The position numbers and the translations under genes are program-made. Under the pieces are notes generated by a model. The model saw only the letters and a list, made by a program, of their open reading frames with translations, had not been told where the DNA came from and made no database searches. From NCBI GenBank assembly GCA_000687655.1, contig JHWR01000007.1, positions 89,393 through 153,392 on the forward strand: 64,000 nt of DNA, given 5' to 3'. Positions 1 to 21,823 of the stretch are shown one piece after another; positions within the stretch are counted from its first letter, which is position 1, and each line of letters opens with the position of its first letter. This DNA comes from Lachnospiraceae bacterium YSB2008. Its GTDB lineage: Bacteria > Bacillota > Clostridia > Lachnospirales > Lachnospiraceae.

Positions 1-1571
1 AGTTTCACAGGCATGCGGTAAATGCGTGGAGGACATATCAGGAAGAAATTCAGAATTCATTCTGGGGCAAAAAAACAAATCTGAAACAGCTGAGAAAAGA
101 GTTCAAGGAGATCAATAATCTTCACAGGCTTGAGCTCCTCGAATATTCTGACAGCAAGGAATTCCTGAAGTCTTTTAAGGAAAATCGCTTTAAGATACAT
201 CAAGTGGTTGAAATATACAACTGGGCTAGGAAATGTAAGGAAGGTACTCCTGAACAGCAGGAAAACTATAATAAATTCAGAGTAGCTCTCGGTCTGACTC
301 ATGAAGGGTTTGAGAACCTGGCAGAAAAGGTTTCTGCACTCGAGATGATCGGACGTCATATGGATGCAAGGATGTCCATGTGTGCCAGTTCTGAATTTAC
401 CAAGTTGAGTACTGACGCAATACAGGATATCGCTCGTATGTCGAAAGAGGATCTTGGGGTACGTATAAAAACGGCTATCGAGAATCAGAATAATCCTCAA
501 CTTCCGAATGAGTATAAGCCTAGTGATGCAAGAATTAAATATCTGAAAAATGTATATAAGTTCAAGAATCTTGAGGAAATCGGTGTTGGAAAACTGGAAC
601 AGCCGGGAATCAGTAAGGAAAAGTCATATACCGACAGAACGGTGGGCGATTCATTTAAACGTAGATTCAAATTCCTTAATGTTCAGGCGAAAATAGGCCG
701 TAAACAGAATAAGAGGAATTATGTTACAGGAGTTGTTGACCTTCCTGTTCTGCTGAAAGCTAAGCTGGGCAAGGTATCACTGAAATATCAGACTAAAAAC
801 AAGCTATTCAAGGCCGGAGCACATGCCGGAGTTCTTGGAAGTAATGTGGCCGGAAGTGTGGGCATAGGTTTTTCACTTAAGAATCCGCTGAGCTCAAAGG
901 TTCAGGCGATGGGATTGGCTGAAGCCTATGCTGCAAGAGGAGTTGCAAAGGCCAACTTGGGTACGGATAATCTCAATGTTGAAGCCAAGGCGTCCGGACA
1001 TATAGGCCATGCTAAGATTGAAGGAAACGTCGGTCTTGGACATATATATAAAACAGATTCAAAAGGAAAAGTAACAGCAGATGGTCTGGGTCTGGAATTA
1101 AAGGGAGGCGCTTCTGCAGCTGTTTTCAGTGGCAGAGTAGAAGGTGGACTGAGTATCTTTGGAGTCAGGATTTCTGTTGCGGCAGAGGGTAAGGCAGTTG
1201 CTGCAGGCCTCGAAGGAGAGTTTTCATTTATTCCTAACAAAGGAGTGAGACTTGGTGGTGGCGGTGCCCTTGGAATCGGCGGAGGATTTTACATTTCGAT
1301 AGATTGGGGTTCGCTGACTGAAAAGTACAGAAGATGGAAAGAAAGAAGGACTATCTCAAAAGCAGCTCTCAAAGCAAAGAAAGAGGAAGAACGCAAGCTT
1401 AAAGAACAGCGTAAGGCTGAGGAAAAACGCCGCAAAGAAGAAGAGCGGAAACGTAAGCTTGAGGAAGCCAAAAGACAGAAGGCTATAAAGGAAGAACAGA
1501 AAAATACAAAGCATGTCAACCATAGTAACGAAATCAAAGGTCAGGTTTCAGTTATCAAATCAAGAAAGTGA
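1..1571 (+). CDS. C-terminal part of a large polymorphic-toxin-like or type VII effector-like protein (5' end outside window)
   Basis: The reading frame is open to the left edge (in frame from base 3), so the gene is 5'-truncated by the window and its start is unknown. About 523 codons are visible. The first ~240 are mainly helical and charged. Then comes a ~190-residue Gly/Ala-rich stretch with alternating small and polar residues (many AGAHAG-, GSVGIG- and GGASAA-type runs), ending near a GALGIGGGFYISIDW segment. The last ~75 residues are almost entirely Lys/Glu/Arg and should form one long charged helix. The Gly/Ala-rich region resembles those in secreted LXG/WXG-type polymorphic toxins of Firmicutes, and the next gene is DUF4176, a family often found beside such loci. 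I see no recognisable nuclease or other toxin motif, so the toxin label is inference. It could instead be a non-toxic envelope protein. Confidence 0.6.
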   Translation, partial: FHRHAVNAWRTYQEEIQNSFWGKKTNLKQLRKEFKEINNLHRLELLEYSDSKEFLKSFKENRFKIHQVVEIYNWARKCKEGTPEQQENYNKFRVALGLTHEGFENLAEKVSALEMIGRHMDARMSMCASSEFTKLSTDAIQDIARMSKEDLGVRIKTAIENQNNPQLPNEYKPSDARIKYLKNVYKFKNLEEIGVGKLEQPGISKEKSYTDRTVGDSFKRRFKFLNVQAKIGRKQNKRNYVTGVVDLPVLLKAKLGKVSLKYQTKNKLFKAGAHAGVLGSNVAGSVGIGFSLKNPLSSKVQAMGLAEAYAARGVAKANLGTDNLNVEAKASGHIGHAKIEGNVGLGHIYKTDSKGKVTADGLGLELKGGASAAVFSGRVEGGLSIFGVRISVAAEGKAVAAGLEGEFSFIPNKGVRLGGGGALGIGGGFYISIDWGSLTEKYRRWKERRTISKAALKAKKEEERKLKEQRKAEEKRRKEEERKRKLEEAKRQKAIKEEQKNTKHVNHSNEIKGQVSVIKSRK

Positions 1572-11769: not shown

Positions 11770-11798
11770 TTGACACTTTGGCCTAAATCAAATATAAT
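11770..11798 (+). promoter_or_regulatory. consensus sigma-A promoter of the kinase/FHA/PP2C operon
   Basis: TTGACA (11770-11775), 17-base spacer, TATAAT (11793-11798): a perfect match to both hexamers, 42 bases before the first kinase ATG. On the other strand, TTGCAA-17-TATTCT lies between here and purC and could drive purC. Confidence 0.88.
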
Positions 11799-11839
11799 AA
11801 TATCGGTATCTTGTAATCTTTTTTACGGAGATTTCTGCT

Positions 11840-14389
11840 ATGAATGAAAAATATCCACTTGCGCTGCCGGAGGGTACAGCCCTAGCCGGTCAGTATATAA
11901 TAGAAAAAGTTCTGGGGCAGGGTGGTTTCGGTATCACCTATAAAGCTGTTGATCATAATTCAGGTCAGTACGTTGCAGTAAAGGAATTCTTCCCGGACAG
12001 TATGGCTACGCGAAATGGAACGACGGTCATTCCATTTTCAGGCGAAAGAGGAGAAAGCTATGTCTATGGTAAAGGCTGTTTCCTCCAGGAGGCTGAGACG
12101 CTCGCGCAGTTTATTGGTAACGATAATATAGTCAGAATATTTACTTATTTTGAAGAAAATGGAACGGCCTACTTTGTTATGGAGTATGTCGAAGGAACTT
12201 CCTTCGATGTCTATATTAGAGAGCATGGCGGAAGACTCAGCTTCGATGAAGCGGCAGCGGTTCTGGTTCCTATTATGGATGCACTCTATGCTGTTCATCA
12301 GAAGGGAATAGTTCACAGAGATGTTACTCCGGACAATATTTATATAACGAACAGTGGCGTGGTTAAGCTTCTTGATTTCGGTGCTGCGAGATACAGTCTC
12401 GGAGATAAGAGCCGAAGTCTTGATGTAGTTCTTAAACATGGATTTGCTCCTAAGGAGCAGTATACAAGGCGTGGTAAACAGGGACCTTTCACAGATGTTT
12501 ATTCCCTGGGAGCAACCTTCTACTATGCTATCACAGGAAAGAGACCTCCTGATTCAGTTGAAAGAATGGATGACGATTCACTCATTCCTCCAAGTAATCT
12601 GGGAGCAAATATCGGACGTGTTCCTGAACAGGCGATACTGAATGCCCTGAACATACAGCCACAGGACAGATTCCAGTCTATGAAAGCCTTCAAAAAGGCC
12701 ATGTATGATTCTCAGGTTATAGATGCCCAGGAGAAGAATGCATACGGAACAGCTTATTATCCGAATACTCAGGTTCAGCCTAATCAGTTCGCAGGACAGA
12801 ACGGACCGGGTTACGGAAGCAGCAGTCTTGGCGGAACATATGGTAACAGTAATGTTCAGCCTGCACAGTATGGCAATGCCGGTGGACAGCCTACTCCATA
12901 TGGTAACAGTGCCGGACAGCCTGCACCATACGGAAACAGTGGTTATGACCAGAGGGCGTATGGGCCGAGTCAGCAGGGTGGAAACAGGAATGTAGGTCCA
13001 ACAACACCTTATAATGCCGGTCAGACTACACCTTACAACGGTGGTCAGACTACACCATACGGATCGGGTGGTAATCAGGGAAGTTACCCATCAGGTGGTT
13101 CGTACGGCGGTGGAAGTCAGAAGAAGAAGACTAATATTGTTCCTATTATAATAATAGCAGCTTCTGTGTTAGCTGTACTGATAGCAGTAATCATCATAGT
13201 TGCTTCCAAAGCACGTAAGCCGGAACCGACAACGGTTGCCGTGAATACAACGACGGAAACAACCACAGCAACAACAGAAACAACCACAAGTCACCGGGAT
13301 ACGGTTGATCCATTCCCTGGCACGACGAGTCCGACTACAGATACTACGACCGAAACTACGACTGAAACTACAACCCAGACCGGAAACAGTGAGACTTATC
13401 CGGAGATTCTTGGAAATGAACCGACGAATCTTGCTAACATGGGGCTTTGTGCAGTAGATGGAAACGGTCAGGAATACGATGCTGATTACAAGGGACAGAG
13501 ACTTCTGAAATATGTTGAAAATGGTGATGATGAGGTCCTTGTTTCAGGAAAGTATATATGGAATCTGAGTATCGTTGATAACACTATATACTATATAGGC
13601 GGTCGACATGCCTATACATGTGGATTGGACGGAAGTAATGATACGTTGATTCCGGAGCTTTCTGCTTACGGTGATGTCGAGAATCTATACGTAACAAAGG
13701 ATTATTACTTTGCACTCAGAGTTGATTCAGCAAGTGATGTATCCAGACTTCTTTGTGTTGAAAGAGGGTCGGGAACTCTGTTATATGAGCTCAAGCTGGA
13801 CCGCGAATATGACTCTGATGCAGATCTTGGTATGAGACAGGTTACATTTACCGGAGGATGCGTATACTATCTGCTTACTTCTGCTGATGGAATCACATAT
13901 GACAGCAGTCAGAAACAGTGCCTTTGGATGCTGCCTGCAGGAGATATGGCTAATTCGACTCCTAAGAAGATAGTTTCATATAACAAACACTGCAGCGAGA
14001 TAACAGCCGAAGGTGACTACGTATATTATATGTTCGGTGACAAAGGCCATGGCTACGGACTTGCCATGATCGATATCAAGAACATTGAAATAGTTGGTGA
14101 TTTTGCGTTCGACGAGAATACATATGACATGACACATATGGTTGTCAGAGATAAGAAACTTGCATTCTATTCTGAGAACAACGGAACTGTCTCAGTATGT
14201 ACGGTAGATGCTATACCGAATGCCGAAAGCTGGACTATTAATACAATTAAGTCGTTTGAAACAGATGAGGGTTTCTGGGGCCTCACTGTTAAGAAAAATG
14301 GATACTATATACTGTCACAGGATTTAGGACTTCAGTACATGGGTCTTGAGGGTGGCGGATATACGATAATATCTGATGTAGATCAGTAA
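11840..14389 (+). CDS. transmembrane Ser/Thr protein kinase with low-complexity juxtamembrane region and extracytoplasmic propeller-like domain (copy 1)
   Basis: 849 residues. Cytoplasmic Hanks-type kinase domain about 15-290: glycine loop GQGGFG, VAVKEFF lysine near 48, catalytic loop HRDVTPDN near 159, DFG near 180, P+1 region KHGFAPKEQY. The usual catalytic-loop lysine (HRDxK) is Thr. A Tyr/Gly/Gln/Pro-rich low-complexity stretch (about 310-430) follows, with repeated GQPxPYGNS and GQTTPY units. One transmembrane helix lies at about 432-456, then a TTETTT-rich wall-spanning linker (465-515) and a ~330-residue ectodomain with repeated Tyr/Asp-rich beta blades, like DUF5050/propeller sensors. 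It is the first gene of a seven-gene operon. The next gene is a tandem paralogue. The sensed signal and the substrates are unknown. Confidence 0.9.
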   Translation: MNEKYPLALPEGTALAGQYIIEKVLGQGGFGITYKAVDHNSGQYVAVKEFFPDSMATRNGTTVIPFSGERGESYVYGKGCFLQEAETLAQFIGNDNIVRIFTYFEENGTAYFVMEYVEGTSFDVYIREHGGRLSFDEAAAVLVPIMDALYAVHQKGIVHRDVTPDNIYITNSGVVKLLDFGAARYSLGDKSRSLDVVLKHGFAPKEQYTRRGKQGPFTDVYSLGATFYYAITGKRPPDSVERMDDDSLIPPSNLGANIGRVPEQAILNALNIQPQDRFQSMKAFKKAMYDSQVIDAQEKNAYGTAYYPNTQVQPNQFAGQNGPGYGSSSLGGTYGNSNVQPAQYGNAGGQPTPYGNSAGQPAPYGNSGYDQRAYGPSQQGGNRNVGPTTPYNAGQTTPYNGGQTTPYGSGGNQGSYPSGGSYGGGSQKKKTNIVPIIIIAASVLAVLIAVIIIVASKARKPEPTTVAVNTTTETTTATTETTTSHRDTVDPFPGTTSPTTDTTTETTTETTTQTGNSETYPEILGNEPTNLANMGLCAVDGNGQEYDADYKGQRLLKYVENGDDEVLVSGKYIWNLSIVDNTIYYIGGRHAYTCGLDGSNDTLIPELSAYGDVENLYVTKDYYFALRVDSASDVSRLLCVERGSGTLLYELKLDREYDSDADLGMRQVTFTGGCVYYLLTSADGITYDSSQKQCLWMLPAGDMANSTPKKIVSYNKHCSEITAEGDYVYYMFGDKGHGYGLAMIDIKNIEIVGDFAFDENTYDMTHMVVRDKKLAFYSENNGTVSVCTVDAIPNAESWTINTIKSFETDEGFWGLTVKKNGYYILSQDLGLQYMGLEGGGYTIISDVDQ

Positions 14390-14418
14390 ATATATACACA
14401 GGCAGGAGAACAAAAGAA

Positions 14419-16932
14419 TTGAGCGAAAAATATCCACTTGCGCTGCCGGAGGGAACAGCCCTCGCCGGACAGTATATAATTGAAAAAGTTTTAGGACAGG
14501 GTGGCTTCGGTATTACATACAAAGCCGTTGATCATACCTCAGGTCAGAATGTTGCCGTAAAGGAATTCTTCCCGGATGCAATGGCCACAAGAACAGGAAC
14601 AACAGTAGTTCCTTTCAGTGGTGAGAGAGGGGAGAGTTTTGAATATGGTAAGGCCTGCTTCCTTCAGGAAGCTGAGACACTTGCCCAGTTCATAGGCAAC
14701 GAGAATATAGTCAGGATATATACATATTTTGAGGAAAATGGAACGGCCTACTTTGTTATGGAATATATCGAGGGAACTTCGTTCGATGTATATATCAAGG
14801 AACATGGCGGAAAGATAACTTTCGATGAAGCGGCTGCAGTTCTTATCCCTATAATGGATGCTCTGAATATAGTTCATTCCAAGGGTATAGTTCACAGAGA
14901 TGTTACTCCTGATAATATTTATATAACTAACAGCGGCGTGGTTAAGCTTCTTGACTTCGGCGCGGCAAGATACAGCCTCGGTGATAAGAGCCGAAGCCTT
15001 GATGTCGTTCTTAAGCACGGATTTGCTCCTAAGGAGCAGTATACAAGACGTGGTAAGCAGGGGCCTTATACTGACGTATATTCACTTGGTGCCAGCTTCT
15101 ACTTTGCTCTTACAGGCAAGAGACCTCCTGATTCTGTTGAACGAATGGATGAGGATGAGCTTGTTCCGCCAAGTAACCTTGGTGCAAAGATAGGCCGAGT
15201 TCCTGAACAGGCTATACTGAACGCACTGAATGTTCAGCCACAGGACAGATTCCAGACCATGGCAGCCTTCAAAAATGCCATGCTCGGCGCGCAGGTCATA
15301 GACGCACAGGAGAAGGCGGCAGCGGGTACCAATACAGCATTATATAACAACCAGTTTGGTGGCGGCGGCTCCTATGGTGATCAGACATCATATGGAAATC
15401 AGCAGACATCATATGGAAATCAGCAGACATCATATGGCGGCCAGCAGAATTCATACGGCGGCCAGCAGAACTCGTATGGCGGCCAGCAGAATTCATACGG
15501 TGGCCAGCAGAACTCTTATGGCGGTGGTTCATACGGCAGTCAGTCAGGATCATATCCCGGTGGACAGAATACACCATATGGTTCAGGCGGCGGCAGCTAC
15601 AGTAGTAGTCAGAAGGGTTCATATAACGGCGGCGGCAACTATCCGAATAAGACTGTTGCGGCAAAGAGCAGTTCAAGTAAGAACAATGGACTTATGATAG
15701 GACTTATCATAGGTGGAGCGGTTCTGGCGGCAATAATCATATTTGTCGTAATAATTGCCGCATCGAGTAGCAAGAAGAAACAGGAAGCAAAGAATACAAC
15801 GGAGTATACTACTCAGGCTACAACAACCGCTACCGATGACACTACATATACAACAACTGAAGCTGACACTACAGATACAACTACGGAAGCAACGACTGAA
15901 ACGACTACGGAAGCAACCACGGAAGTGGCAACCGGTGATATGTATCCGGATATATACGGTGTTCCGGATAATATCTGCTATGGTGGACTGCTTGCTTTCT
16001 CAAGTGACGGTCAGGAGTTCGATATAGACAGAAAGAACAGTCGAATTCTTAAGTACGTTTCCGGCGGAGACGATATAGAAATAGATTCCGGAAGCAATGT
16101 ATTTGCCCTCAGTGTTGCAGGAAGCAGACTGTACTACATAAAGAATAATGTTGCATGGTCCTGTAATCTTGATGGAACCGGAAAAGAGATGGTACCTGAA
16201 CTTCTCAGTTTCTCTGATCTTGAGCAGTTATATGTATCAGATGATTATTTCTTCGCTTACAGATGTAGTTCCAGTAAAAGAGTCAGCAGACTTGTTCAGG
16301 TTTCAAGAACCACCGGAAAGACCGTAGGTGAAATGATATTCGATTACGAGTCTAACGGCGACGAATTTATAGGAAGCTATTTATTCACACTTAATGGAGG
16401 ATATCTCTATTATATAGGCAAATCTTCAGACGGAAGGACATATAATTCTTCTGAACAGAACAGGCTCTGGAGAATCCCTCTCGGAAATCTGGGCGGCACT
16501 CCTGAGGATACAAATGTCAGGATCAAGTGCGACTGTGAGGAGGTTATTTCTAACGATGATTATGTTTTTATCCTCTGTGGAACTCATTACAATGCGTCGG
16601 AGATAGTGGCTGTTTCACTTTCGGATTTCTCAATAGTGAACGACGCACTTTGGGACAGCAATACGTACACATTCTCATATCTGAATGTAAGAAATGGACA
16701 GCTTGCTCTTATAGGATATGAAGGGGGCAAAACCGGTATATATACTATAGATATTTCCTCATCAATGACGAATTGGACTGTAGTAAAGTATGCTCCTCTT
16801 GATGATCTTGGATTCTGTTTCGATCTGAATGTGATAAAGAATGGATTTTTCATTGCAACAACAGAAAGAGGAACGGTGTTTATCCCTGATGAAGGAAATA
16901 ACTTCGTATATATTGGCGAAGATGATAATTGA
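14419..16932 (+). CDS. transmembrane Ser/Thr protein kinase with SYGQQ-type low-complexity repeats (copy 2)
   Basis: 837 residues, a tandem duplicate of the preceding kinase. The kinase domains are nearly identical over residues 1-290, with the same HRDVTPDN loop and DFG, while the downstream parts diverge. The juxtamembrane region (about 310-420) contains about seven heptad-like repeats of SYGxQQx type, strikingly like the low-complexity regions of human FUS/EWS proteins. The TM helix lies at about 422-448, followed by a TTEATTE linker and a propeller-like ectodomain of about 310 residues with only moderate similarity to copy 1. The start is TTG 14419, preceded by AGGAGAA; the N-terminus SEKYPLALPEG aligns with copy 1 and supports it. 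It starts 30 bases after copy 1. The pattern suggests two kinases with a shared output but different sensors. Confidence 0.9.
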   Translation: MSEKYPLALPEGTALAGQYIIEKVLGQGGFGITYKAVDHTSGQNVAVKEFFPDAMATRTGTTVVPFSGERGESFEYGKACFLQEAETLAQFIGNENIVRIYTYFEENGTAYFVMEYIEGTSFDVYIKEHGGKITFDEAAAVLIPIMDALNIVHSKGIVHRDVTPDNIYITNSGVVKLLDFGAARYSLGDKSRSLDVVLKHGFAPKEQYTRRGKQGPYTDVYSLGASFYFALTGKRPPDSVERMDEDELVPPSNLGAKIGRVPEQAILNALNVQPQDRFQTMAAFKNAMLGAQVIDAQEKAAAGTNTALYNNQFGGGGSYGDQTSYGNQQTSYGNQQTSYGGQQNSYGGQQNSYGGQQNSYGGQQNSYGGGSYGSQSGSYPGGQNTPYGSGGGSYSSSQKGSYNGGGNYPNKTVAAKSSSSKNNGLMIGLIIGGAVLAAIIIFVVIIAASSSKKKQEAKNTTEYTTQATTTATDDTTYTTTEADTTDTTTEATTETTTEATTEVATGDMYPDIYGVPDNICYGGLLAFSSDGQEFDIDRKNSRILKYVSGGDDIEIDSGSNVFALSVAGSRLYYIKNNVAWSCNLDGTGKEMVPELLSFSDLEQLYVSDDYFFAYRCSSSKRVSRLVQVSRTTGKTVGEMIFDYESNGDEFIGSYLFTLNGGYLYYIGKSSDGRTYNSSEQNRLWRIPLGNLGGTPEDTNVRIKCDCEEVISNDDYVFILCGTHYNASEIVAVSLSDFSIVNDALWDSNTYTFSYLNVRNGQLALIGYEGGKTGIYTIDISSSMTNWTVVKYAPLDDLGFCFDLNVIKNGFFIATTERGTVFIPDEGNNFVYIGEDDN
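15376..15525 (+). repeat. tandem 21-bp coding repeat (SYGxQQx low-complexity region)
   Basis: About seven imperfect 21-base units built on TCATATGGCGGCCAGCAGAA, encoding SYGGQQN-type heptapeptides inside the second kinase. Synonymous variation is small (tac/tat, tca/tcg), so unit number may change by slippage or recombination. Confidence 0.9.
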
Positions 16933-16982
16933 TACTAAAGACAGATAAAATGTCTTACATATAATAAAGGAGGTATATTAAT

Positions 16983-17732
16983 ATGGCATTAGTGGAGTGT
17001 GCAAATGGACACCTTTACAATACTGACCAGTATGCATCATGCCCTTACTGTGGCGGAACTATGAACCGCGTAGAGTTCGGATATGGTGGAGACAGTAGTA
17101 TAGGTAAGACTGCTCCAGCCGGTTTCGGAGCTACAGCAGCACCATCGGGGTATGGTGCAACAGCAGCACCATCAGGCTACGGCTATGGGGGAGGCGGATA
17201 CGCACCGGGACCTGAGTATGGCGCAACAGTAGCACCTGCAAGCTATGGGTATGGGGCACCCGGAGGATTCGGTGGTGGCGAAGATATAGGTGCAACAGTA
17301 GCACCGTCAAGCTACACTGATTCACAGAAGCAGGAGACATCAGACGAGGATACAGGTAAGACTGTAGCAGTTCTGAAGAAGAGTCTCAACGTTGATCCTG
17401 TTGCAGGATGGATCGTATGTATTGAGGGAACAGATAAGGGTAAAGATTTCCGCATCCTGGCTAAGAATAACAGTATTGGCCGTAGCGAGAAGATGGATAT
17501 CTGTATCAAGGGTGACACGACTATATCTCGTGAGAATCATGCCAAGATAGCTTATGACGTTAAACACAATACATTTCATCTTATACCTGCCGACAGCACG
17601 AACAGCATTTATCTGAACGGCGAGCCTGTATATGTTCCTACAGTTCTCGAAGCAAATGATGTTCTGGAGTTCGGCGAGAGCAAATTCATGTTTGTGCCTT
17701 TCTGCAGTGAGAAATTTACATGGCAGAGTTAA
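16983..17732 (+). CDS. zinc-knuckle FHA-domain protein with GATxAP repeats
   Basis: 249 residues, cytoplasmic. Residues 6-23 hold Cys6, His10, Cys20 and Cys23 (CANGH ... CPYCGG), a likely zinc knuckle. Residues 38-110 are Gly/Tyr/Ala-rich with at least four GATxAPxxY units, each with a Thr that could be phosphorylated. A GKTVAVL segment leads into an FHA domain (about 140-245) with the phosphothreonine-binding GRSEK, ISRENHAKI and SIYLNGEP elements. The layout recalls GarA/FhaA-like kinase substrates, which carry a phospho-Thr tail and an FHA domain; that role here is inference. The ATG follows AAGGAGGT. It lies 50 bases after kinase 2 and 15 bases before the first phosphatase. Confidence 0.88.
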   Translation: MALVECANGHLYNTDQYASCPYCGGTMNRVEFGYGGDSSIGKTAPAGFGATAAPSGYGATAAPSGYGYGGGGYAPGPEYGATVAPASYGYGAPGGFGGGEDIGATVAPSSYTDSQKQETSDEDTGKTVAVLKKSLNVDPVAGWIVCIEGTDKGKDFRILAKNNSIGRSEKMDICIKGDTTISRENHAKIAYDVKHNTFHLIPADSTNSIYLNGEPVYVPTVLEANDVLEFGESKFMFVPFCSEKFTWQS

Positions 17733-17747
17733 TAATGGAGTTATGAT

Positions 17748-18515
17748 ATGCAAGGTGAGCAGAATTTATCATATAGGCTTGGCAATCTTCAGGGCGTAGG
17801 AGCAAGAAAACGTCAGGAGGATTCATTCGCTGTTGCAAATGCATTTGATGTTAATATGATCAGAGAGCAAGGACTGTTCTTCACCGTCTGTGATGGTATG
17901 GGTGGTATGAAGGATGGCAAGCTTGCAAGCGAGACAGCAGTGGCAAGTCTCAGAAATTCATTTATGGAAATGGACCGTAACGGGGATATATCATCCCAGC
18001 TCAGAGACAGTGTGTTTAAGGCGTCGGAAGCGGTATTTGATGTTATAGGAGGCAGTGGCGGAAGTACTACTGTAACCGGCATCATCTATAAAGAGCAACT
18101 GTACTTCTCAAGTGTTGGAGACAGCTACTTCTTCCTTCTCAGGAAGGGCAGGCTTTACAGGCTTAATCATGAACATAACTTAAGACATGAGAAATTCCTG
18201 TCTGCGATACGTTTCGGAGATATGGATCCGTCTAAGTACATGAACATTCCTGAAGCTGAAGCTCTTACACAGTTCCTGGGTATGGACGGTATGTCAGATG
18301 TTGACTGTACCGTAAAACCGTTCCCTCTTCTTAGGGGTGATGTGCTTATGGCCTGCTCCGACGGAGTCGGCGGAGTACTCACGGAAGACGAAACGAGAAG
18401 GTGTATGTCCTTTGTTTCCGAAAGGTCCATGTGCCAGCAGATCGAACAGTTCCTGGTTGCTCATGCAAGAAGAAATCAGGATAATTATACGGCACTTATA
18501 GTTAAATGTATTTAG
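17748..18515 (+). CDS. PP2C-family Ser/Thr protein phosphatase (copy 1)
   Basis: 255 residues. PPM/PP2C metal-binding motifs are visible: RQEDSF (first Asp) near 22, VCDGMGGMKDG near 47, SVGDSYFFLL near 125, ACSDGVGG near 203 and QDNYTALIV at the C-terminus. It should remove phosphate from Ser/Thr in the cytoplasm and so oppose the two kinases upstream. In place of the more usual MGGHxxG it has MGGMKDG, a mild deviation. There is no signal peptide or TM. It sits between two FHA-encoding genes in the operon, with 6 bases between its stop and the alternative ATG of the protease gene. Confidence 0.92.
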   Translation: MQGEQNLSYRLGNLQGVGARKRQEDSFAVANAFDVNMIREQGLFFTVCDGMGGMKDGKLASETAVASLRNSFMEMDRNGDISSQLRDSVFKASEAVFDVIGGSGGSTTVTGIIYKEQLYFSSVGDSYFFLLRKGRLYRLNHEHNLRHEKFLSAIRFGDMDPSKYMNIPEAEALTQFLGMDGMSDVDCTVKPFPLLRGDVLMACSDGVGGVLTEDETRRCMSFVSERSMCQQIEQFLVAHARRNQDNYTALIVKCI

Positions 18516-18539
18516 AGTTTTATGAAAGTGAGGAAGAGT

Positions 18540-19907
18540 ATGAAAAGTAGAATGAAGAAATGGTTAGGCGTACTTGTACTTGCAGCCTTCATGGCTTTCG
18601 GAGTGCTGCCAATCAAGTCATCCGCAGCATTTGATACAGGTGTTAGAGATGGTGTTTGCGTTGTTACATCATATCTTATTGATGCAAGCACAGGACTTAT
18701 TTATGACGGTGGACAGGGTTCAGGCTTCTTTATAGGTGAGCTTGACAAGAATCCTGAATATCTTATAACAAATCACCATGTTGTTGATACTTATCTCAAT
18801 TATGGTAAAGGTGAGAAGTGGCAGGCTCAGCTTACAAACGGAAGTGTTGTGACTGTAAGAGCAACTGTAAGAGTTTACTTTACAGGTGTTGAGTTTGTTG
18901 AAGCAAGAGTTATTGATTATGATGATGTAGCTGACGTTGCAGTTCTCAGAATTGCATCTCCTACAGATCAGAGAAAGGCTCTTCCACTTCACGTTCCTAC
19001 AGATAATGACGTAGGAAGCACATGCTACTGTGTTGGTTACCCTGCAATAGCTGAGAACTTCTATAAGGAAGCTACATCTTCATGGAAGAAGGAAGACTCC
19101 AGTGTAACAACAGGTACAGTCAGCCGTCTTATCACAATAGCAGGTACAGGCGTTAAGGCTATACAGACAGATGCTCAGGTTAATCATGGAAACTCAGGTG
19201 GACCTATGGTTAATGACGCAGGTGAGGTACTTGGTATCAATTCATGGGGAGTTCAGAATACTGAAGGTGAGCAGGAGAATTACGCATGTGATATCTCTGA
19301 AGTAACATCAATCCTCAGCAGAAATAATATTACTTACGTTGAGGGCGCAGGTACAAATACTGACCCTTCTACAGAGGATCCTACTACAGAAGCTCCTACA
19401 CCTGAGAAGAAGAGTGGTCTTTCAACAGGCGCACTTATAGGTATTATCGCAGGCGCACTTGCTGTTATAGCTGCAATCGTTGTTATCATAATTGTTGCTA
19501 CAGGAAAGAAGTCAGCTCCACAGGCAGCACCACAGGCAGCTCCACAGCCAATGCCTGGTCCAATACCTCAGGCAGCTCCACAGAAGAGAGCTATGCTCAG
19601 ATCAATGTCTACACAGCATGGTGGTCAGACATTCCCTGTTGGTTCAACACCTGTTATGATTGGTAGAGATCCATCAAGCTGTACTATCGTATATCGTGAA
19701 GGTACAGCAGGTGTCAGTGGAAAGCATTGTCAGGTACAGTTTGATGCAGGTTCAGGTAACTTCATCATTACAGACCTTCGTTCATCTTATGGTACTTTCC
19801 TTATGAACGGAACCAAGCTTCCTGCAAATACACCATATCAGCTTAAGGCTGGTGACAGTTTCTATGTTGGTGACAAGCAGAACGTTATACGTACTGAATT
19901 GGGGTAA
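18540..19907 (+). CDS. membrane-anchored extracytoplasmic trypsin-like serine protease with cytoplasmic FHA domain
   Basis: About 455 residues. The N-terminus KKWLGVLVLAAFMAFGVLPI then SSAA is a signal peptide. An S1C (HtrA/trypsin-like) protease domain follows (about 35-265): ITNHHVVD for His, DVADVAVLRI for Asp and NHGNSGGPMV for the nucleophilic Ser are all present. A short Thr/Pro linker leads to one TM helix near 296-320 (GALIGIIAGALAVIAAIVV). A Pro/Gln/Ala-rich stretch then leads to an FHA domain (about 353-450) with GRDPSS, SGKHCQV and SSYGTFLMNG. Predicted topology is protease outside, FHA inside. There is no PDZ domain. ATG 18522 is in frame, but AGTGAGGAAG lies between it and ATG 18540, which I chose. 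Confidence 0.88.
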   Translation: MKSRMKKWLGVLVLAAFMAFGVLPIKSSAAFDTGVRDGVCVVTSYLIDASTGLIYDGGQGSGFFIGELDKNPEYLITNHHVVDTYLNYGKGEKWQAQLTNGSVVTVRATVRVYFTGVEFVEARVIDYDDVADVAVLRIASPTDQRKALPLHVPTDNDVGSTCYCVGYPAIAENFYKEATSSWKKEDSSVTTGTVSRLITIAGTGVKAIQTDAQVNHGNSGGPMVNDAGEVLGINSWGVQNTEGEQENYACDISEVTSILSRNNITYVEGAGTNTDPSTEDPTTEAPTPEKKSGLSTGALIGIIAGALAVIAAIVVIIIVATGKKSAPQAAPQAAPQPMPGPIPQAAPQKRAMLRSMSTQHGGQTFPVGSTPVMIGRDPSSCTIVYREGTAGVSGKHCQVQFDAGSGNFIITDLRSSYGTFLMNGTKLPANTPYQLKAGDSFYVGDKQNVIRTELG

Positions 19908-19910
19908 AAC

Positions 19911-20630
19911 ATGATAGATGTATATGAATACACTAACCAGGGTGGACGCAGCTACAATGAGGACTCAGTTGGCTCTGTATATAAGGACAATACAGGAATC
20001 TTTGTAGTTGCTGACGGACTTGGTGGTCATGCCTTCGGTGAGGTCGCATCTTCGTGTGCAAGAGATACAGTGCTCTCGGATTGGAAGCCGGGAGCACAGG
20101 ATCCTGTTGCATGGTTTAACGCGGTCATAACAAAGGCAAATAACAATATATTACAGCTCCAGCAGGAGAAGGGTGAGATCATGAAAAGCACGATAGTAGC
20201 CCTTTCTCTGGATAACGGAAGAGCTGTATGGGCTCATTCGGGAGATTCCAGACTTTATTACTTCCACGACGGATTGATTGCTGAATTCACAGATGATCAC
20301 AGCGTTGCATATAAGAAGTATAAAGCCGGAGAAATCGAACGTGATGAGATAGCAGATGATGACGATCAGTCAGCGCTTCTCAGGACTCTTGGAGGTCCTG
20401 ACAGGTTTGAGCCGGATGTCTTCGTTCTGCCGCATCAGGTTGAGGTGGGAGACGCTTTCTTCCTGTGCTCGGATGGTGCGTGGGAGTTTCTCCGTGACGA
20501 AGAGATGGCAGTGGATCTTGCTAAGGCAGATGACGCAAAGCACTGGGCTGAGCTCATGCTTCTTCGAATGATGGACAGAATAAAGGGTGGCAATGATAAC
20601 CTGACACTTCAGACTATCATTATCAAATAA
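19911..20630 (+). CDS. PP2C-family Ser/Thr protein phosphatase (copy 2)
   Basis: 239 residues. Canonical PP2C motifs: RSYNEDS near 14, VVADGLGGHAFGE near 34, AHSGDSRLYYF near 104, FTDDHS near 122, LCSDGAWEFL near 185 and GNDNLTLQTIII at the end. It is closer to classical bacterial Stp/PrpC than copy 1, so the two are probably not recent duplicates. It starts three bases after the stop of the protease-FHA gene, implying tight translational coupling. Likely role: dephosphorylation of proteins phosphorylated by the operon's kinases, possibly the phospho-Thr sites read by the FHA domains. Confidence 0.93.
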   Translation: MIDVYEYTNQGGRSYNEDSVGSVYKDNTGIFVVADGLGGHAFGEVASSCARDTVLSDWKPGAQDPVAWFNAVITKANNNILQLQQEKGEIMKSTIVALSLDNGRAVWAHSGDSRLYYFHDGLIAEFTDDHSVAYKKYKAGEIERDEIADDDDQSALLRTLGGPDRFEPDVFVLPHQVEVGDAFFLCSDGAWEFLRDEEMAVDLAKADDAKHWAELMLLRMMDRIKGGNDNLTLQTIIIK

Positions 20631-20659
20631 GCATAAGTCACGTAAGGGGGTAACCTGTT

Positions 20660-21781
20660 TTGAAAAGAAAATTAATACAGAAAATTCTTATCGTGGCATT
20701 TGCAATCGTTATGATGATTGCCATTCCATTTAAAACAAATGCCGCAAAAGGCACACCGGGTGGTGAGAACGGTACAACCGAAACAACTACTGAAAAGCCC
20801 GGAAAGACGACTGAGTCAACAACTGAATCAACTACAGAACCAAGTGTATTAAAACCGGGACAGCCGCCGGCCTTAACAGAAGAGCCGTCAACGGATGAGG
20901 AACCGGGAGCGGGCGATTCACAGGAGCCTACAACAGAGGCAACCACTGAAAAACCTGGTAAAACGACTGAGTCAACTACAGAGGCTGATACAGATGATTC
21001 AGAGACAACTACTGAAGAAACAACAAAGCCTAAGAATGAAGACAGGACTGTAGAAGATAAGACAGAGAAAAGTGATAAGGACCTTATTGCAACTAAAGGC
21101 GACCCTGATAAAGATAAAGAAGGAAAGAGCATTCCTACTACATTTATTATTATCGGTGTTTGTGCACTCGTTGTAATAATCGCACTTATTGTAGTTATTG
21201 CAGTTCTCCTGTCAGCTCGCAAGAAGAATTCGGCACCGGTAACTACTGTAACGCCGGATATACCGCCAAATGATTTTGATGATACACTGCCACCTATTCC
21301 GCCGGCATTTGCAGCAGGCGCAGCGGACGGAAACAGCGGAGTTCTTGCAGGTCAGGCGGTTGGAGCAAACAGTGGAGTCCTTGCAGGCCAGGCAGTCGGA
21401 GCAGGCAGCGGAGTTCTTGCAGCAGGTGCTGCAGCAGCGGCTGTAAATGCAGTAAGACCGGATGCGACAGTACAGGCGCCTGGATCATTGCCTATTCAGC
21501 TCGATATTTATAATGGCGAGTCACCTACAGGAAGCAGGACACTGTATATGGCACAGGATCTCATCATAGGAAGTGGTCCGAACTGTGATATCATATTCAG
21601 TGAGCCTTATGTATCAGGTCAGAATACAAGAATATTCCTTCAGAACGGAACAGTTATGATAGAGGATATGAATTCTACCAACGGTACTTATGCAGCAGGA
21701 CTCAGAGTGAATAAGGCAGCACCACTTAAGAGTGGTGATGTAATATCCATAGGAGAAGCAGAATTCTGTTTGAAATTCTAA
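20660..21781 (+). CDS. single-pass membrane protein with extracytoplasmic Thr/Glu/Pro-rich region and cytoplasmic FHA domain
   Basis: 373 residues. An N-terminal signal sequence (residues 1-30) precedes an extracytoplasmic low-complexity region (about 30-150) of TTEKPGKTTES-type repeats. The TM helix lies at about 156-180 (IIIGVCALVVIIALIVVIAV). The cytoplasmic part holds three near-identical NSGVLAGQAVGA units (about 215-260) and a C-terminal FHA domain (about 275-372) with IGSGPNCDI and DMNSTNGTY. It has the same topology as the protease-FHA protein but with no folded outer domain, so it may be a wall-contacting adaptor. TTG 20660 is the start, with AAGGGGGT eight bases upstream. It is the last gene of the operon, followed by a strong terminator. 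Confidence 0.85.
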   Translation: MKRKLIQKILIVAFAIVMMIAIPFKTNAAKGTPGGENGTTETTTEKPGKTTESTTESTTEPSVLKPGQPPALTEEPSTDEEPGAGDSQEPTTEATTEKPGKTTESTTEADTDDSETTTEETTKPKNEDRTVEDKTEKSDKDLIATKGDPDKDKEGKSIPTTFIIIGVCALVVIIALIVVIAVLLSARKKNSAPVTTVTPDIPPNDFDDTLPPIPPAFAAGAADGNSGVLAGQAVGANSGVLAGQAVGAGSGVLAAGAAAAAVNAVRPDATVQAPGSLPIQLDIYNGESPTGSRTLYMAQDLIIGSGPNCDIIFSEPYVSGQNTRIFLQNGTVMIEDMNSTNGTYAAGLRVNKAAPLKSGDVISIGEAEFCLKF

Positions 21782-21794
21782 TAATGATTATTCT

Positions 21795-21823
21795 TACGCC
21801 GGGTTTTTACCCGGCGTATTTTT
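21795..21823 (+). terminator. strong Rho-independent terminator ending the kinase/FHA operon
   Basis: Perfect 10-bp stem TACGCCGGGT/ACCCGGCGTA (21795-21804 with 21809-21818) and a TTTTT tail. It bounds the operon 13 bases after its last stop. Confidence 0.95.

Follow-up and report, generated by a model that had tools for sequence, protein, structure and literature searches.

Bacterial Ser/Thr kinases often lack dedicated, genetically linked readers and outputs. Clusters of genes for kinases, PP2C phosphatases and FHA proteins are already known. In the T7SSe variant of the type VII secretion system (T7SS), as portrayed in the consulted part of the report by Garrett, Higginson and Palmer (2024; PMC11217815), kinases, a PPM phosphatase and FHA proteins occur together. 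In the actinobacterial pstP locus, according to excerpts of PMC6554272, the genes for two receptor kinases form a single cluster with those for PP2C and FHA proteins, and excerpts of PMC9312465 describe Rv1747, an ABC transporter of Mycobacterium tuberculosis, in which PknF promotes and PstP reverses the condensation of the FHA-and-linker part. Here we analyze an operon of Lachnospiraceae bacterium YSB2008 that lies at positions 11770-21823 of a 64,000-nucleotide stretch of contig JHWR01000007.1, referred to as the window; its seven genes, promoter and terminator are all on the forward strand. This operon is one example of a cassette found in Clostridia that consists of one or more receptor kinases, a zinc-ribbon FHA protein (znFHA, the hub), two PP2C phosphatases, a protease joined through a transmembrane segment to an FHA domain (PRO-FHA) and, often, an FHA protein with a transmembrane segment. 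What are likely a sensor, a writer, two erasers, a hub and a membrane enzyme share a single operon, and many Clostridia have a version of it.

The locus shares the joint presence of kinase, PPM phosphatase and FHA genes with the T7SSe, and the T7SSe-like cluster of the same genome has a protease-FHA protein of its own. Unlike the T7SSe, as far as the consulted text describes it, the operon lacks EssC, WXG100, TseI and TseK, its kinase and receptor type look different, and its hub is a zinc-ribbon FHA protein rather than a DUF6382-FHA protein. It resembles the pstP locus in that PP2C and FHA genes cluster with those of two receptor kinases, but it is devoid of the rodA, pbpA and PASTA components given in the excerpts of PMC6554272 and possesses in addition the protease-FHA, a second PP2C and variable receptor domains. 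The hub has an FHA domain and a linker with multiple Thr motifs, and the clustering of FHA domains and a disordered linker that the excerpts describe for the membrane protein Rv1747 serves here as a working model; the output is a transporter there and would be a protease here, and the linker that connects two FHA domains of one protein there belongs to a separate hub protein here. A narrow term search of the open-licence literature did not retrieve a description of this gene set, which supports its absence from print only weakly; nor did the literature searched mention a transmembrane protease-FHA partner, a zinc-ribbon hub with multiple Thr motifs or the exchange of outer domains. The consulted portions of PMC7159879, PMC1262709 and PMC6213207 do not describe such a cassette.

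The operon is preceded by a perfect consensus promoter (TTGACA-17-TATAAT; 11770..11798), the sole exact match in the window, where 0.06 matches are expected and 6 of 100 shuffles reach one. It is followed by an intrinsic terminator (21795..21818), a stem-loop of -20.5 kcal/mol (z = -5.46) with a subsequent T-run. The seven same-strand genes between them are separated by 29, 50, 15, 6, 3 and 29 bases, and their Pfam domains are, in order, Pkinase, Pkinase, FHA, PP2C, Trypsin_2 plus FHA, PP2C, and FHA; the two kinase, three FHA, two PP2C and single Trypsin_2 domains each score above the curated cut-off. The operon with its promoter and terminator is therefore real, and the one consensus promoter, the seven tightly spaced genes and the one strong terminator of the initial annotation were all found where it had placed them. 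A promoter-like site in the gap between the second kinase gene and the znFHA gene (16938-16965) matches the consensus at 10 of 12 positions and is weaker than the main promoter; it may be a second, internal promoter, and matches of this kind are common by chance (45 found, 30.6 expected). Hydropathy analysis indicates one transmembrane segment each in the first kinase (K1, residues 436-454), the second kinase (K2, 429-447), PRO-FHA (308-326) and the last FHA protein (FHA3, 162-180), in line with the earlier proposal that both kinases and two membrane FHA proteins cross the membrane. Hydrophobic N-terminal stretches of PRO-FHA and FHA3 are interpreted as predicted signal peptides.

The most distinctive component is PRO-FHA (18522..19907), which we characterized by Pfam, AlphaFold2, Foldseek, residue inspection and hydropathy. 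Behind its predicted signal peptide follow an outer DegS/HtrA-like protease domain with the catalytic triad H86, D138 and S225, the transmembrane segment and an inner FHA domain (residues 379-450). The AlphaFold2 model, built from a 30-row alignment, has a mean predicted local distance difference test (pLDDT) score of 82.7, and Foldseek groups the protease part with Deg1, DegS and HtrA. PRO-FHA thus shares with DegS and HtrA the protease fold, the H-D-S triad, a predicted membrane anchor and the position of the catalytic domain outside the cell. Unlike them, it has no PDZ domain detectable by Pfam at E <= 0.01; its sole other domain, in the place of PDZ, is the predicted cytosolic FHA domain, and its genetic neighbours are kinases and phosphatases. 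The protease is predicted to lie outside and the FHA domain inside, an orientation deduced from the hydrophobic N-terminus and from charged residues past the transmembrane segment. The suggested coupling of an inner FHA domain through the membrane to an outer protease is supported in its predicted architecture only. In the alignment, the FHA domain retains the G-R, Ser and His residues of the phospho-Thr site. Among 51 stand-alone copies of PRO-FHA, of which those of L087 and L223 do not differ in their last 300 residues, the full triad is present in 49, and the FHA Gly, Arg, Ser and His residues are present in 51, 50, 51 and 51, respectively.

K1 (849 amino acids; 11840..14389) was assigned as a receptor Ser/Thr kinase by Pfam, hydropathy, AlphaFold2 and Foldseek. 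It consists of a kinase domain (residues 20-238), an inner linker rich in Tyr, Gly, Asn and Gln, the transmembrane segment, a Thr-rich outer linker and an outer domain from about residue 520 to 849. K2 (837 amino acids; 14419..16932), identified by Pfam, starts with a TTG codon at 14419 that is preceded by AGGAG. With PF00069 scores of 117.6 and 119 bits (cut-off 31.7) and complete catalytic motifs (GQGGFG, VAVK, HRDVTPDN and DFG), both proteins have the sequence hallmarks of Hanks-type Ser/Thr kinases and are predicted to be active. The kinase domains of K1 and K2 are 88.8% identical, whereas their outer domains share 34.3%; between K1 and its counterpart in a related genome (G023) the values are 86.7% and 50.2%. 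The outer domain of K1 was modelled as a beta-propeller (pLDDT 87.7, predicted template-modelling score 0.87), and its top Foldseek match in the PDB is 3s25, a seven-bladed propeller from Eubacterium rectale; the fold was taken from a 10-row alignment because homologues of this domain are so few (three proteins including the query). The cytosolic linkers of K1 and K2 (12695-13144 and 15274-15702) combine SYGGQQN-like repeats with a high content of Tyr, Gly, Gln and Asn and resemble eukaryotic FUS. Such a linker was rejected as a defining feature of the family, being present in the window and in some relatives of the genus (loci L060, L061 and L063) but not family-wide. In genome G012, the kinase copy (L062:369-2297) appears to lack most of the kinase domain while retaining the outer domain.

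The znFHA hub (16983..17732), defined by Pfam, alignments and motif counts, possesses an N-terminal zinc-ribbon motif (C-x2-G-H...C-P-x-C), a linker (residues 24-141) and a C-terminal FHA domain in which the phospho-Thr-binding residues G-R, Ser and His are aligned. This C-terminal domain is strongly conserved; the 24-row alignment has 16 invariant columns, the ribbon Cys residues and G-R among them. The linker (17052..17405) carries the motifs GKTAP, GATAAP, GATVAP and GKTVAVL, a predicted array of phospho-acceptor sites, and repeats such as IGKTVAV, GRTAP and GATVAP are found in homologues. Compared with shuffles, which ignore kinship among the proteins, [GA][KR]T motifs are enriched in 30 hub homologues (49 motifs, at least one in 21 of the proteins; shuffle mean 5.2, maximum 14 in 2000) and in 37 class-level homologues (26 motifs, at least one in 17; shuffle mean 3.1, maximum 10); one protein is common to both sets. 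Several lineages without [GA][KR]T carry other linker motifs, for example of the PTxxP or ETxLL type, as judged by eye.

PP2C phosphatases A (255 amino acids; 17748..18515) and B (239 amino acids; 19911..20630) both exhibit the PP2C/PPM metal-binding motifs ED, DG(M/L)GG, GDS, SDG and DN and match PP2C or PP2C_2 of Pfam above the cut-off. FHA3 (20660..21781), assigned by Pfam, alignment and hydropathy, has a predicted signal peptide, a Thr-rich outer segment, the transmembrane segment and an inner FHA fold. The initial annotation had counted it as one of three FHA phospho-readers, a view that the alignment does not support: G-S replaces G-R and the S-x-x-H motif is gone, as in the close relatives L060, L061 and L062. 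G-R is retained in the FHA3 counterparts of L079, L082, L084, L085, L087 and L099. FHA3 of the window species is thus probably not a phospho-reader, and since it has lost these residues, only znFHA and PRO-FHA look like readers.

The initial annotation had staked its self-contained circuit of kinases, phosphatases and FHA proteins with a membrane protease on conservation beyond this strain, and conservation was found: the gene set, and partly its order, recurs in relatives well beyond it. Genome G023 carries all seven genes in the same order at the same genomic site, flanked by a purC-like gene on one side and by DUF4230 and nicotinate phosphoribosyltransferase-like genes on the other, with one additional gene on the purC side compared to the window. 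Three further genomes (G051, G012 and G030) have a single kinase gene followed by znFHA, PP2C, PRO-FHA and PP2C, and one from another family (G111) has a rearranged gene set; within the genus, the presence of the cassette is patchy. From at least 535 relatives in the named genome collection we kept 80 loci, 28 of which contain the one-gene fusion on the matched strand. Within five same-strand genes of these 28 fusions we found a kinase at 24, a soluble FHA protein at 27, a PP2C at all 28, two PP2Cs at 23 and a transmembrane FHA protein at 16. EssC was found at none of the 28 in the fetched stretches of at most 10 kb on either side, and a rather insensitive search with three references likewise revealed no WXG100 gene. 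The order of the window (soluble FHA, PP2C, protease, PP2C) is kept at 13 fusion loci and the order soluble FHA, PP2C, PP2C, protease, kinase at seven; a strict gene order was rejected as the definition of the cassette because the remaining eight loci fit neither. We likewise rejected a tally of 49 among 117 relatives as a count of operons; most of the matches near E = 1e-11 span the protease part only. After annotation of the 13 regions behind that tally together with the 80 named loci, 42 of the 93 had at least two hits besides the lone protease.

Because the 80 loci had been drawn by the protease-FHA itself, the presence of the protease among them is not a result. We therefore consider an independent draw by the znFHA hub, which matched 36 of 393 genomes of the class at E <= 1e-25 and yielded 37 loci from 35 genomes besides that of YSB2008 (G000); the L087/L223 genome is in both draws. 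Automatic annotation labelled a protease-FHA at 17 of these 37 loci; L220 adds a diverged one by Pfam, and L224 has a gene of similar size at the corresponding position. The remaining loci represent different forms of the cassette. Eight hub loci (L207, L208, L209, L211, L212, L213, L236 and L239) show a variant composed of znFHA, a PP2C and a second PP2C-like protein of about 550-625 amino acids; no kinase or protease-FHA is labelled in their fetched stretches, and Pfam returns nothing for the long L208 protein at E <= 0.001.

A Pfam scan of nine homologous kinases, picked from many for their differing outer parts, revealed varied outer domains around a retained kinase: LRR_4 (L083 and L104), DUF285 (L081), BspA-type LRR_5 (L102), DUF6273 (L098), PASTA (L088) and DUF5050 (L092), with no known outer domain in L078 and L089. 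As judged from these sequences, the outer, likely sensing, parts of the kinases are exchanged while the inner core stays constant. Of the loci scanned, L098 has the hub and the PP2Cs but no one-gene protease-FHA, and the protease of L104 lacks part of the triad. Variation extends to the output side: L220, L224 and L230 encode FHA-FHA-ABC transporters, and L216 encodes an FHA-FHA-ABC ATPase.

We tentatively read the operon, at a likelihood just short of even, as a predicted transmembrane phospho-signalling cassette that is conserved across Clostridia. Its output is likely to be a DegS-type protease anchored in the membrane, which would be under the control of an inner FHA domain. Starting from the gene set, its recurrence, the catalytic and FHA core residues, the exchange of outer domains and the Thr-motif array, we infer every step of the signal flow, phospho-gated clustering of the protease included. 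The propeller domains of K1 and K2 would sense a cue at the cell surface, and the activated kinases would phosphorylate Thr motifs of the hub linker as well as their own. Bound to these sites, the hub and protease FHA domains would then gather the protease beside the receptors; the gathered outer protease domains would meet, switch on and cut envelope targets, possibly the Thr-rich linkers of the receptors or of FHA3. The two PP2Cs would reset the phosphorylation state, and FHA3 might act as a phosphorylation-independent partner in the window species. For FHA clustering that is promoted by a kinase and reversed by a phosphatase, Rv1747, as presented in the excerpts of PMC9312465, may serve as a precedent by analogy, although it is no evidence for this operon. 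With these parts in one operon, the entire route from a cue to a cut, both outside the cell, could be rebuilt from seven genes. If correct, the model would describe a way in which bacteria use phosphorylation to control proteolysis from the inside out, and a design of general kind with sensors and outputs exchanged around a constant phospho-hub.

Several findings weigh against this interpretation. Gene order varies, with 8 of the 28 fusion loci outside both common arrangements, and FHA3 is degenerate in the window species. By automatic annotation, 20 of the 37 hub cassettes lack a protease (19 when the Pfam result for L220 is included), which makes the protease one of several outputs. Linkers without any [GA][KR]T motif occur in 9 of the 30 hub proteins of the first set and in 20 of the 37 of the class-level set, and kinship is left out of account in the shuffles. 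Moreover, the third usual contact residue is Tyr instead of Asn in 33 of the 51 protease FHA domains, and binding could therefore be weak or altered. A broader view, which we hold with some hesitation and at somewhat less than even chances, would see a widespread, hitherto undescribed bacterial signalling platform with plug-in sensors (propeller, LRR, BspA, DUF6273 or PASTA) and a constant zinc-ribbon multi-Thr FHA hub, on which receptor kinases would act as writers and two PP2Cs as erasers. The phospho-dependent membrane clusters of this hub would fire a DegS-like protease outside, an inside-out proteolysis by way of the transmembrane protease-FHA, and in other genomes the hub would be re-wired to FHA-ABC transporters and type VII secretion.

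Signals might also run in the opposite direction, with the outer protease sensing or cutting receptor ectodomains and thereby altering FHA docking and kinase activity inside. Cutting of a membrane partner by DegS starts a signalling cascade, DegS is among the closest folds of the PRO-FHA protease, and this protease is predicted to be outside with an intact triad, where receptors and FHA3 expose Thr-rich linkers. We nevertheless regard an outside-in route as unlikely: the exchanged outer domains belong to the kinases and the FHA core residues are conserved as well as the triad, which suggests that signals enter at the kinases. It is more doubtful still that the operon is a Clostridia counterpart of the actinobacterial pknA/pknB/pstP/fhaA/fhaB/rodA/pbpA locus and controls wall growth and division. 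The grouping of two kinases, PP2C and FHA proteins recalls the locus in the excerpts of PMC6554272, but Pfam finds no rodA, penicillin-binding protein or PASTA domain among the seven genes, the presence in the genus is patchy, and the genome has a separate PP2C-kinase pair on contig C8. This pair looks to us like a housekeeping PrpC-PrkC pair. Judged by matches of the seven proteins to defence models, an anti-phage defence system based on kinases and a protease appears very improbable. In PADLOC, the best PD-T4-6 model gives the kinases 165-169 bits and mad6 gives them about 164; RT-Protease_XI and LmuA match the protease at 65.9 and 45.2 bits, and PDC-M21C matches PP2C B at 48.0 bits. These best kinase and protease matches, however, span the kinase or the protease domain alone, and no PADLOC model matches znFHA, PP2C A or FHA3. 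NCBIfam MAD6, which has a cut-off of 460 bits, scores 135 and 134, and no whole-protein match to the MADS or PD-T4-6 families was obtained in PADLOC or NCBIfam.

An accessory role in trans for the type VII secretion system of the genome is, in our view, as doubtful as the counterpart of the actinobacterial locus. The G000 genome (2.69 Mb, 29 contigs; 10 kinase and 10 FHA matches) encodes a single EssC above cut-off. This EssC, which carries an FHA domain, is located on contig C3 and not on the operon contig, in a cluster with WXG100 genes, two kinases, a 1746-amino-acid TseI-like protein, a TseK-like protein, a PP2C and a 659-amino-acid protease-FHA protein with a transmembrane segment. This cluster resembles the T7SSe as defined in the consulted part of PMC11217815, by comparison with which the TseI and TseK labels were assigned; kinases, PPM phosphatase and FHA proteins of T7SS variants described in that text likewise favour an accessory role, as do two of the 37 hub cassettes (L220 and L221) that adjoin WXG100/EssC genes. 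G023, in contrast, has all seven genes, and its genome, 97% complete, yields no EssC match at E <= 1e-60. Of 392 Clostridia genomes, G000 left out, 35 are hub-positive, 5 of them with an EssC match and 30 without, and 357 are hub-negative, 29 of them with a match; the association is not significant (Fisher p = 0.21). The T7SSe-like cluster, moreover, owns kinases, a PP2C and a protease-FHA, and three of the four T7SSe-type or EssC-linked protease-FHA copies have Lys for the FHA Arg. The co-occurrence statistics and G023 led us to demote the type VII system from operon partner to a minor rival: it is not a required partner, and the link, although present in some genomes, does not hold in general. 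The type VII link hinted at in the initial annotation is thus weakly supported. The statement in that annotation that the operon has no secretion genes agrees with the Pfam results (neither EssC nor WXG100 in any of the seven genes). A second TseI/TseK/kinase/PP2C/FHA-like set, truncated by the contig end, lies on contig C17 (L022, G000:C17:42000-54497), and no EssC was found in the fetched stretch. Given the C3 and C17 sets, the window operon is one of several phospho-modules of this genome and stands outside the T7SS cluster.

The gene at the left edge of the window, described as effector-like in the initial annotation, spans window positions 3-1571 and encodes a 713-amino-acid protein that starts upstream of the window (L024:12823-14964) and has no Pfam match at E <= 0.01. 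In the T7SSe-like cluster, the 659-amino-acid protease-FHA gene is the apparent first gene (L019 with L029, G000:C3:8500-36000). The consulted text of PMC11217815 does not name such a protein as a T7SSe component; the word trypsin is absent from it, and protease is used solely for MycP and in references. An EssC-linked relative in L157, one of the four such copies, has lost two triad residues. The cytosolic tails of TseK-like proteins with a single transmembrane segment (L019:15893-16453, L022:7542-8459, L065, L067 and L156) carry arrays of T-x-[VLI]-L motifs; the five tails contain 16 such motifs, compared to a mean of 0.9 and a maximum of 6 in 2000 shuffles, and T7SSe FHA domains might dock at phospho-Thr in these motifs.

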